DNA from: Elusimicrobiota bacterium
GTDB lineage: Bacteria; Elusimicrobiota; Elusimicrobia; Elusimicrobiales; UBA9959
Assembly: GCA_026388125.1 (NCBI GenBank)
Contig: JAPLKJ010000310.1
Span: forward strand, 1 to 36,947
Direction: 5' to 3'
DNA: 36,947 nt
Shown piece by piece: positions 19,969-23,802 of the stretch. A program made the position numbers and the translations under genes. The notes below the pieces were generated by a model. It made no database searches. It worked only from the letters and a program-made list of their open reading frames with translations, and was not told the origin of the DNA. Within the stretch, counting starts at the first letter, position 1. Every line of letters starts with the position of its first letter.

Positions 19969-19997
19969 TTTACAGCGCCCCCGGATTTTGTTATAAT
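19969..19997 (+). promoter_or_regulatory. Strong sigma-70-type promoter
   Basis: TTTACA (19969-19974), 17-base spacer, TATAAT (19992-19997): five of six and six of six consensus matches at ideal spacing, the best promoter in the window. Transcription should begin near 20,004, leaving about 188 bases before the next start codon. Confidence 0.8.
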
Positions 19998-20003
19998 AGT
20001 ACT

Positions 20004-20156
20004 ACAACATCGTAAGGCAGTAGTGTTTTCCGTATCTTACAAGCTGCGCGGGTATCCTTAAACACCTAAGACTACTCTCCGCAGTGATGTCTCGCAAAGT
20101 CCGCGAGCGCGTTAAGTTTCCCCCACCTACAACGGAACTTAGCACAAAGTATCGGG
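20004..20156 (+). ncRNA. Structured leader or independent small RNA, possibly 6S-like
   Basis: The transcript from the strong promoter contains about 150 bases without a likely gene but with several complementary segments. AGTAG and GTGTTT pair with AAACAC and CTACT (about 20,030-20,081, with a bulge). CTCGC-AAAGTCC-GCGAG forms a hairpin (about 20,093-20,109). TTCCGT (about 20,036) can pair with ACGGAA (about 20,132) to enclose the whole. One long branched rod closed by a stem and holding a bubble resembles 6S RNA, and the order CTCCGCAGTG...CGAG...TTAAGTT recalls the 6S apical part. This is recognition by eye, not a covariance score. Alternatives are a cis-regulatory leader of the secreted protein at 20192 or no specific RNA. 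A frame from 20084 through this region is open but lacks protein character. Confidence 0.35.
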
Positions 20157-20172
20157 AATATAATAAAAATTA
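20157..20172 (+). other. AT-only hairpin next to the ribosome-binding site
   Basis: AATATAAT-AAAA-ATTATATT (about 20,157-20,176) is a perfect eight-base-pair inverted repeat just before the GGAGG at 20179-20183. It contains TATAAT (20159-20164), so it may instead be a second -10 element for the gene at 20192, with a poor -35. Confidence 0.4.
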
Positions 20173-20191
20173 TATTTCGGAGGCTTGTGTT

Positions 20192-20809
20192 ATGAAAAAG
20201 TACGTCAAATTGGTCCCTTGTATTCTCTTTGCAGCCCTGTCCGGCTCAGCTTTCGCGCGGCCGAACCTGGGCAATTCCGCTCTTGAGGCCGTTATCGCTG
20301 GTACCGACGCGCAGCTGGCGCCGGCCCTGAGCAGCGCCCTGGAGCAGTATCAGCCCGCCCCGGTCCCCGCGGCGGAACCGGAAAAAGCCGCCCAGGTACG
20401 GCTTACGGATATAACCGAAAAATGCACGCACAACGGCGAAGTGGTCTCGGCCTATCCCGCTATCTATAAAATGGTGCCCAGCGAGGAAAATTCCCGCGTG
20501 ATAAAAGTGTTCAGCTTCCGGGACGCTAAAGGCGTTGAGCGCCGGCTGGAGGTCTTCTACACCGGCGGCGACTGGATGCAGTACGGGCTGACCTATTTCG
20601 TGACCGACGCGGGGCAGGAAAGGGCCCAGGCCGGGGCTTATTTCATGACCGACCTTTCCACGTCCGACCGCGAAGAGGGCGCCGTGGCCCCCAAGGTGGA
20701 CCCTTTCAATATGCCGCAGCTTACCGGCTTTATCGTGGCAGAGTTCCTTGACGCCGCCGGCAAAGTGAAGGCCGCGTTCGGCAGCGTAGCCATAGCGTCC
20801 GCGAAATAG
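20192..20809 (+). CDS. Small secreted protein of unknown function
   Basis: 205 residues with a classical signal peptide (MKKYVKLVPCILFAALSGSAFA) and a mature part of mixed strands, for example RVIKVFSFRDAKGVERRLEVFY and GDWMQYGLTYFVTD. Residues 45-65 are a Pro/Ala/Glu-rich linker. No family recognised. ATG 20192 is preceded by GGAGG at eight bases; an upstream in-frame ATG at 20084 would add residues that precede the signal peptide and is rejected. It is expressed either from the strong promoter at 19969-19997 with a long leader or from an AT-rich element at 20159-20164. A terminator follows. Confidence 0.75.
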   Translation: MKKYVKLVPCILFAALSGSAFARPNLGNSALEAVIAGTDAQLAPALSSALEQYQPAPVPAAEPEKAAQVRLTDITEKCTHNGEVVSAYPAIYKMVPSEENSRVIKVFSFRDAKGVERRLEVFYTGGDWMQYGLTYFVTDAGQERAQAGAYFMTDLSTSDREEGAVAPKVDPFNMPQLTGFIVAEFLDAAGKVKAAFGSVAIASAK

Positions 20810-21458: not shown

Positions 21459-21622
21459 GTCTCACCTCCGGGCTGTATCGCCGGTTTCGGCGCCGTTACC
21501 TGGCTGTCCGGTTATCCTAGCAAATCCTTGCAAGGGAGTGAGCTGGATCCTGGGCATGTAAGATCAACCGCACCCGCCCGTCTTTCTCCGCAGGGCCGGT
21601 TCCGCGGCTGGATGCAGTTTGA

Positions 21623-21628
21623 TATAAT
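21623..21628 (+). promoter_or_regulatory. Candidate -10 element of the cobalamin-riboswitch transcript
   Basis: TTGATATAATTAACG contains TATAAT placed so that transcription would begin about 21,635, exactly where the riboswitch aptamer begins. The -35 region (about 21,600-21,605, TTCCGC) is weak. Confidence 0.55.
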
Positions 21629-21635
21629 TAACGTG

Positions 21636-21758
21636 TTCTGGCGGAGGAATCCGGTGTAAATCCGGAGCTGCCCCGCAACGGTGATGTCCGTCCCTGACGG
21701 TCTAAGCCCGGTCTACCGCCGGAACGGTCGCAGCCTGCGAGGGACGGCATTTTTCCTT
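21636..21758 (+). promoter_or_regulatory. Cobalamin (AdoCbl-type) riboswitch
   Basis: The core has the conserved order GGAATCCGGTG-AAATCC, GAGCTGCCCCGCAACGGT, then the B12 box AAGCCCGGTCTACCGCC. The aptamer binds cobalamin and lowers expression of the downstream gene. Downstream lies TCGCA-GCC-TGCGA, and GGGACGG (21741-21747), which is complementary to CCGTCCC (21688-21694) inside the aptamer and is followed by CATTTTTCCTTTT. This pairing could be the aptamer-to-expression-platform contact that, with the T-rich tail, stops transcription when B12 is bound; a translational mechanism is not excluded. It sits directly upstream of the BtuB-like receptor. Confidence 0.92.
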
Positions 21759-21810
21759 TTAAGGGATGGCCGCCTTTTGTTATGGCGCGGCCTGTCCCGC
21801 GGGAGGAAAA

Positions 21811-23640
21811 ATGAGGATCACGCCAGTATTGTTGTTGTTGTGCCTTAGTCCATTGAACCTGTATTCCACAGAAAAGACCGGCCAGGACGTATTTTTTTCC
21901 ATTTCAAGGACCGCCGCTTACCGCGCGCTGCCGCCAGTCGACGCCAGAACGCTGGATGCCGCCGCCCTGGAGCGGCAGGGAACGGCGTCCTTGGCCGACC
22001 TGCTGGAGGGCTCGCTGCCGCTGACCATCAGGCGGCTGAACGGTCCGCTGGGCCTGGCCACCGTTTCGATGCGCGGCTTCCAGGCCAAGCAGACGGCGGT
22101 GTTTCTTGACGATGTCCGAGTTCCCTCCGATATAACCGGCACGGTCGACCTTTCCCTGATTCCGGCCGCGGGGTTGGGTAAAGTCGAGATACTTCCGGGG
22201 GCGGCCTCCTCCATATACGGCGGCAACGCGGAGGGCGGGGTGGTGCAGCTGTTCACGCGCCGCCTTTCCCCGGGGGCCAGGCTGGCCGGCGCGGAGGCCT
22301 CCTGCGGCTCTTACGCCGCCCGCCACGGTTCCGTAAAGGCCGGCGCCGCCGGGCGGCGGCTGGAGGTTTTCTTCGGCGGCTCGTCCGACGCTTCGGCCGG
22401 CTTCCAGCAGAACTCGAAACTGGACAAGGACGCCGCCAACGGCCGCGCCGCGCTGGACCTGGGCGCGGCGGGCAGCCTTACTTTTACCGGCTTCGTGTCG
22501 CGCCTGAAAACCGGATTGCCGTCCGGTACGCCGGCGCCGGTGTCCGCTTGGGACGGCTCCAAAGAACGGACCGCAAATTCCCTTACCGACCGGCAGACCT
22601 CGCGCAGGAGTTTTTTGTCCGGCTCCTGGAGCGCGGGCGGCCGGGACCTGGCCCTGCGCGTGGATTCCTCCCTTTCCGCGAACGATATAGAAGCGTACCA
22701 GTGGGGAGCGCTCAACGGGGCGAAGGTCACGGACAGGGCTTTGGCCGCCAGGCTGACGCTGTTGGGCACCGCGGTGCTGGGGGCGGAAAGCGCGGTCTCC
22801 AGGCTGGCTTCCGGCACTTACGGCGACCATGCGCTGGACTCGGCCGGCTTCTTCGCGCAGAAAACGTTCAGTCCGGCCGAAGGCTTTGAACTGACGCCGG
22901 GGGCAAGGCTGGATAAAAGCGCCGGCTTCAAAAGCCGGGTCAGCCCCAAGCTGGCGGCGGTTTACGCGCCGGATGAAAAATGGAAATTCTCGGCCTCCGG
23001 CGGCTATGGCTTCCAGGCGCCGACTTTCGCCGACCTCTATAACCCCTGGGCGGCGCCCACCCCGGGGCTTAAGCCCGAGACCAGCCTGAACGCCAATGCG
23101 GCCGTGTCTTACGGCTCGCCCGACGGCTGGTACGCCGGCCTGACCGGCTATTATTCTGACATTAAAGACAGGATAGCACTGGACCCCGTAACCTGGGCGG
23201 CGGCCAACCTGGACGCCGGCTTTAACACCGGCCTGGAGGCCGAAGCGGGCTTTAAGTCCGGCGCGGTGACGGCCACGGCCGGCTATGTGCGCAATATAAG
23301 TATGGTGAAGACCGGCGGCGCCAGCTACAAGCTGTTGAACTTCAGCCCGGCGCAGCGTTTCACCGGCTCGGTTACGGCTAAAGCCGCCGGCCTGGACCTG
23401 GGCCTCAGCGGCCGCGGCGTTTCAAGGCAGTATACCGGGCGGGGGAGAACCGGCTTGTGCCTGCCGGAATTCTGGGTGTTCGGTTTAACGATGGCCCGGA
23501 AGCTGGGCGTGCTGGAATTATGGGGGGGCGTGGCGAATATCCTGAACAGGCGTTACGCCGAAACCGCCGACGCTTTCAACGGCTGGTTCCCCCAGCCCGG
23601 CCGCACCTTCACCGCCGGTCTGAAAGCCCGATTCCTCTGA
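21811..23640 (+). CDS. btuB: TonB-dependent outer-membrane receptor, BtuB-like (cobalamin uptake)
   Basis: 609 residues. Signal peptide, then a plug domain (about residues 40-150) with the family-typical pattern ADLLEGSLPLTIRR, VSMRGFQAKQTAVFLDDVRV, VEILPGAASSIYGGNAEGGVV. Then a long beta-barrel region (YGFQAPTFADLYNPW near residue 410; PGLKPETSLN; GYYSDIKDRI) and a C-terminal RTFTAGLKARFL strand. The cobalamin riboswitch immediately upstream identifies the ligand as cobalamin or a related corrinoid, by regulatory logic rather than by residues. ATG 21811 has GGGAGG five bases upstream. The earlier in-frame ATG (21766) lies inside the expression platform and is rejected. No btuCDF, TonB or cobalamin-salvage gene follows in the same direction, so the receptor is encoded alone. 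The symbol is by function and is tentative. Confidence 0.85.
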   Translation: MRITPVLLLLCLSPLNLYSTEKTGQDVFFSISRTAAYRALPPVDARTLDAAALERQGTASLADLLEGSLPLTIRRLNGPLGLATVSMRGFQAKQTAVFLDDVRVPSDITGTVDLSLIPAAGLGKVEILPGAASSIYGGNAEGGVVQLFTRRLSPGARLAGAEASCGSYAARHGSVKAGAAGRRLEVFFGGSSDASAGFQQNSKLDKDAANGRAALDLGAAGSLTFTGFVSRLKTGLPSGTPAPVSAWDGSKERTANSLTDRQTSRRSFLSGSWSAGGRDLALRVDSSLSANDIEAYQWGALNGAKVTDRALAARLTLLGTAVLGAESAVSRLASGTYGDHALDSAGFFAQKTFSPAEGFELTPGARLDKSAGFKSRVSPKLAAVYAPDEKWKFSASGGYGFQAPTFADLYNPWAAPTPGLKPETSLNANAAVSYGSPDGWYAGLTGYYSDIKDRIALDPVTWAAANLDAGFNTGLEAEAGFKSGAVTATAGYVRNISMVKTGGASYKLLNFSPAQRFTGSVTAKAAGLDLGLSGRGVSRQYTGRGRTGLCLPEFWVFGLTMARKLGVLELWGGVANILNRRYAETADAFNGWFPQPGRTFTAGLKARFL

Positions 23641-23646
23641 TAATAA

Positions 23647-23724
23647 GGGACGGACACCTATATAATTTATTTACATAGTGCATTGGATTGATATAATTTT
23701 ATGCCGAGACTAGGTGTCTGTCCC
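23647..23724. repeat. Short inverted-repeat element (MITE/REP-like)
   Basis: GGGACGGACACCTA (23647-23660) and TAGGTGTCTGTCCC (23711-23724) are inverted copies matching at 13 of 14 positions, and 50 AT-rich bases lie between them, including TATAATTTATT and GATATAAT. The terminal motif GGGAC-GACACC resembles REP/MITE elements associated with IS200-like REP-type transposases in several bacterial phyla, as I recall. No transposase is present here, so this would be a non-autonomous copy. It sits between the receptor gene and the M42 peptidase, and may act as a terminator or bring a promoter. Confidence 0.6.
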
Positions 23725-23802
23725 CAATTAGCCAATTTTCTCCGGTAGGGGCGGAGTTTTGTATTATTATCAGGACGAAAATCAGTTTTGACGGAGAACA
23801 TC

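Follow-up and report, generated by a model that had tools for sequence, protein, structure and literature searches.

A covarying 5' leader RNA before exported-protein genes in one family of Elusimicrobiota, a candidate riboswitch

In this study, in which the window, i.e., the whole stretch of 36,947 nucleotides, was analysed together with related genomes, we found that positions 20029-20187 of the + strand carry a conserved structured RNA. The covariance model of this RNA, R1, comprises the helices P1, P2/P2b, P3, P4 and P5, and it recognises the copy in the window with 171.2 bits (E 7.5e-43), a score to which the window sequence itself contributed as one of the 42 from which the model was built. 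As judged from its surroundings, with a promoter just upstream and an ORF for an exported protein downstream, the element is an mRNA leader rather than a free RNA. We consider it probable that the leader is a cis-regulatory, riboswitch-like element that controls translation. The fuller reading, that it represents a new riboswitch class of one Elusimicrobiota family, which would sense a molecule and adjust the output of a small group of co-regulated exported envelope proteins, among them a barstar protein directed to the periplasm, is held more tentatively, with rather more doubt than assurance.

The promoter (19969-19997, + strand) is of the sigma-70 type with an extended -10 element, TTTACA-17-TATAAT with the extended TG, and matches the consensus at 11 of 12 positions; transcription would start at about 20004. 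The initial annotation had called it the best promoter of the window. It is indeed strong and near the consensus, but it shares its score with a second 11/12 match at 23670, which lies within an inverted repeat, GGGACGGACACCT...AGGTGTCTGTCCCC (23647-23725). This repeat looks like the end pair of a small mobile element, and its 12-base arm has only one exact occurrence in the genome. The strong promoter proved to be a general property of the leader, as 93.5% of the 62 sites identified among related genomes had a match of at least 9/12 upstream of the motif, compared to 8.5% of the shuffles. The extended TG was present at 56 of the 62 sites, and, where the promoter reached 9/12, the distance from the end of the -10 box to the start of the motif was 8-55 nt. 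In the window, the 5' leader is about 190 nt long, contains the structured core at 20029-20187 and reaches the ATG at 20192. No U-rich terminator was seen between the leader and this ORF; in contrast to the proposed 150-base RNA, no end is expected near 20191 and the leader continues into the ORF. Among members of the main clade, 2-8 nt separate the end of the motif from the start codon. The spacer is longer in the divergent copies L063 and L066, in which an exported-protein ORF, as judged by eye, still follows. The absence of a protein-like frame from the leader was borne out: no reading frame was conserved among the 62 relatives, stops were absent from just 4-8 leaders in each frame and the leader lengths varied regardless of multiples of three. 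A protein-coding leader was rejected on these grounds.

The fold that the copies have in common is a branched junction in which P2, P3 and P4 lie inside P1 and P5 stands beside the Shine-Dalgarno sequence; all of the helices are on the + strand. Paired segments had been described in the initial annotation in a rod-like arrangement, of which the pairing was confirmed, but the rod was not, since the consensus is a multi-helix junction. The order of short words that had drawn attention, CTCCGCAGTG..CGAG..TTAAGTT, is real: the first two words are the 3' strands of P2 and P3, and the third is the 5' strand of P4. The 5' side of P1 (20030-20038) consists of CCG at 20030-20032 and CUU at 20036-20038, which would pair with CGG at 20153-20155 and AAG at 20147-20149 on the 3' side (20147-20155), the same bases being able to extend P5. 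P2 (20043-20047/20081-20085) and P2b (20051-20054/20073-20076) together span 20043-20085, were changed on both sides in eight of nine pairs and enclose a conserved loop, UCC..AAA..CC.AAGAC. In one copy (L161, genome G068), about 40 nt resembling a self-complementary repeat are inserted into the P2b loop, the remaining fold being kept. All five pairs of P3 (20091-20107; 20091-20095/20103-20107) were changed on both sides. The same was true for 5 of the 10 pairs of P4 (20109-20145; 20111-20119/20135-20143 plus G20109-C20145), a count that depends on the inclusion of the divergent copies L150 and L151. P4 is capped by a conserved C-rich loop, and inspection by eye revealed no covariation for a pseudoknot between this loop and the Shine-Dalgarno sequence. 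P5 (20156-20178) is an AU-rich hairpin immediately 5' of the Shine-Dalgarno GGAGG (20179-20183, + strand), which is followed by CUU (20184-20186), a triplet that is often conserved but not kept in all copies. The arms of P5 change length together (GA/UUC, GAA/UUUC and GAAA/UUUUC); the hairpin is missing or different in at least four divergent copies (L063, L066, L150 and L151). Moreover, about 40 positions of the leader are invariant, many of which lie in loops and junctions. The folding energy was -54.9 kcal/mol compared to -41.8 kcal/mol for shuffled sequences (z -2.84), with one of the 200 shuffles being equally good.

The helices were further examined for compensating changes. In an alignment of 42 sequences, which was made using MAFFT and was therefore blind to structure, the drawn helices paired in 98.2% of the cells. 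There were 61 doubly changed cells compared to 12.5 in the shuffles, with none of the 500 shuffles reaching as high, and sliding the structures by 1-3 columns reduced the paired cells to 33-48%. Across all 62 copies, 129 compensating cells were counted where 23.7 were expected, and 23 of the 38 pairs were changed on both sides, although this alignment was fitted to the model and hence is biased towards its structure. The check for covariation at related loci that had accompanied the original proposal thus came out in favour of a structured RNA. In the structure of the 62 copies, G·U cells numbered 229 and A·C cells 16, which identifies the + strand, that of the mRNA, as the RNA strand. Based on these comparisons, we regard the helices P2, P2b and P3 as established, and P4 as well once the divergent copies are counted; P5 is supported by the joint lengthening and shortening of its arms. 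P1 is a putative helix that is only weakly tested and is unproven by covariation because it is nearly invariant.

The distribution of the leader is narrow. In 33 of 61 related genomes, leader DNA of 74-97% identity was found, at 46 places in total; the protein downstream in the window was present in only 18 of 101 genomes. A loose core pattern that was searched through about 85,000 species returned 53 stretches, all of which were labelled Elusimicrobia, Elusimicrobiota, Elusimicrobiales or plain bacterial MAGs. The same pattern had no match in viral contigs, and a viral origin was rejected. The covariance model, applied to 341 Elusimicrobiota genomes under strict filters that may miss remote copies, identified 62 places in 47 genomes, all within the window's own family and spread over 11 genera. 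Several copies may occur in one genome, each of them running into an ORF. In the genome of the window, a barstar homologue runs off the end of a contig (G000, C297:3-206), so that assembly alone may account for the lack of another leader copy there.

The leader is common to three unrelated types of exported protein, whose signal peptides were judged by eye and without a dedicated program. Type A (16 sites) is the family of the window, where the gene at 20192-20809 (+ strand) encodes a 205-aa protein with a signal-peptide-like N-terminus, no Pfam family and no confident structural match; a structure search with the predicted type A domain likewise returned none. Type B (31 sites) is DUF3108-like with a weak Pfam score (E 0.0013), and its predicted structure resembles the LolA/LolB/RseB-like barrels (best E 3.5e-7 at a low TM-score), a modelled likeness that places the protein in the envelope and points to no ligand. 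In type C (15 sites), a barstar domain (E 1e-10 to 1e-11) comes after the signal peptide. Barstar is normally a cytoplasmic inhibitor; at the type C loci (L046, L051, L052, L057 and others), the barstar proteins with signal peptides are apparently bound for the periplasm. Family genomes that have the RNA usually carry one of types A or B, with or without type C. The leaders were 86-90% identical compared to 66-69% for the coding sequences. In the leader tree, the sequences grouped by gene type (9 changes vs. 26.7 when shuffled), which indicates that the leaders mostly descend with their genes. In one genome (G002), the type A and type C genes were 88% identical in the signal-peptide stretch and 60% elsewhere, which suggests that the leader and the signal sequence can be transferred together as one cassette. 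Type B matches of full length adjoin places of the RNA. The leader was absent from the shorter, signal-less DUF3108-like paralogues (mostly about 190 aa), from the signal-less barstar paralogues of about 138 aa and also from two divergent type A homologues in genome G073. No common pathway was found among the gene neighbours of the leader sites, and the functions of the downstream genes point to no ligand.

A covarying aptamer-like structure and a placement in the 5' untranslated region, both of which are expected of a riboswitch, were found for the leader. In the proposed mechanism, the P1-P4 junction would bind a small molecule, an ion or a protein, and in the bound state P1 would close via CCG/CGG and CUU/AAG, thereby withholding bases from the hairpin beside the ribosome-binding site so that translation could start. 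In the unbound state, P5 would be lengthened by AAG and UCGG into the Shine-Dalgarno region, with less translation as the result; in this manner, envelope or exported proteins might be controlled jointly by the element, as members of a small regulon. Both the direction, that of an on-switch, and the ligand are guesses. Folding of the RNA alone predicted P2-P5 and gave P1 a probability of only 0.01-0.02, because AAG and UCGG pair more favourably in a P5 that is lengthened in the direction of the Shine-Dalgarno sequence, and 31-39 of 41 sequences can form the competing pairs of P1 and extended P5. Translational riboswitches are commonly laid out in this way, and we consider such a switch the most likely explanation. 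According to the thermodynamic model, the Shine-Dalgarno sequence is about 40% unpaired with the default extended P5, and forcing P1-P4 brought no net gain (access of 0.42 vs. 0.40). Since at least four divergent copies have an altered P5 or none and the CUU is not universal, the switch cannot be universal either, and, together with the unchanged access, this means that we infer the mechanism rather than demonstrate it. Control of translation fits better than attenuation because no U-run terminator follows P5, and an intrinsic terminator was rejected for the same reason.

Among the other explanations, a constitutive leader is the most serious, although we regard it as rather unlikely. The fold and P5 would then do no more than shield the mRNA against decay and offer ribosomes a strong binding site on messages for abundant exported proteins, without any sensing, which agrees well with the strong promoter and the strong Shine-Dalgarno sequence at nearly all sites, the position of P5 immediately before the latter and the link to exported proteins instead of to one pathway. 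The invariant positions in loops and junctions, however, exceed the needs of a stabilising hairpin, and the competition of P1 and P5 for the same bases also speaks against it. The several unrelated targets per genome and the restriction to one family would fit an RNA-binding protein, e.g., a lineage-specific regulator that co-regulates the exported proteins, as well as they fit a ligand, but the size and the branched fold with its conserved junctions exceed most simple protein sites and no candidate protein was identified; we find such a site improbable. The high DNA identity between loci could also be thought to mark a conserved DNA element, either a protein-binding site or a mobile element. 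Such an element hardly deserves consideration, as the compensating changes and the asymmetry between G·U and A·C require that one strand folds as RNA and the leaders track their gene families by descent.

The reading that was originally preferred, 6S RNA, or any other trans-acting small RNA, is very improbable, although slightly less so than a DNA element. It draws on the resemblance in short sequence words and nothing else. None of the families of Rfam 15 matched the window copy or the tested relatives at the gathering score, and the 6S model (RF00013) had no match in the region even when E values of up to 10 were allowed; the single match at that level was to a microRNA and is attributed to chance. 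RF00013 was found in none of 59 family genomes, a result of limited power, as the control detected 6S RNA in only 5 of 14 well-known genomes. The only Rfam match in the window is a separate element, an AdoCbl (cobalamin) riboswitch (21619-21754, + strand, 58.5 bits), which lies directly 5' of a TonB-dependent receptor gene (21766-23640) and marks an ordinary B12-controlled outer-membrane uptake gene. The rod with a large central bubble that characterises 6S RNA is replaced here by a multi-branched junction, and in place of a free-standing RNA gene, the inspected sites have a motif that leads into an ORF for an exported protein. Covariation, distribution and position all speak strongly for the alternative offered at the outset, a new leader.

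Most Elusimicrobiota have not been cultured, and records of their RNA regulation are scarce. No published description of this leader, or of such a motif in Elusimicrobia, was found among the papers searched, which did not include subscription journals. A leader that is common to three unrelated exported families would define a regulon without a known protein regulator and links otherwise anonymous proteins, i.e., the LolA-fold protein, the barstar-domain protein and the family of the window; as a candidate orphan riboswitch, it also comes with a ready alignment and covariance model. Compared to known systems, the leader resembles 6S RNA in its length near 180 nt and the order of short words, but differs in its branched, mRNA-linked form, in its several copies per genome and in the lack of a covariance match. 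With riboswitches that have translational expression platforms, it shares the 5' leader position, a covarying multi-helix junction, invariant unpaired bases and, in the proposed mechanism, competition for bases between a helix and the hairpin beside the Shine-Dalgarno sequence. Unlike them, it matches no Rfam riboswitch family and its targets are exported proteins rather than a metabolic pathway. It is also similar to the orphan structured RNA motifs known from comparative genomics, which are supported by covariation, precede genes of unknown function and are confined to a narrow lineage. We would class the element as a new RNA family that belongs to a known kind, namely structured 5' leaders that are candidate riboswitches, and not as 6S RNA.
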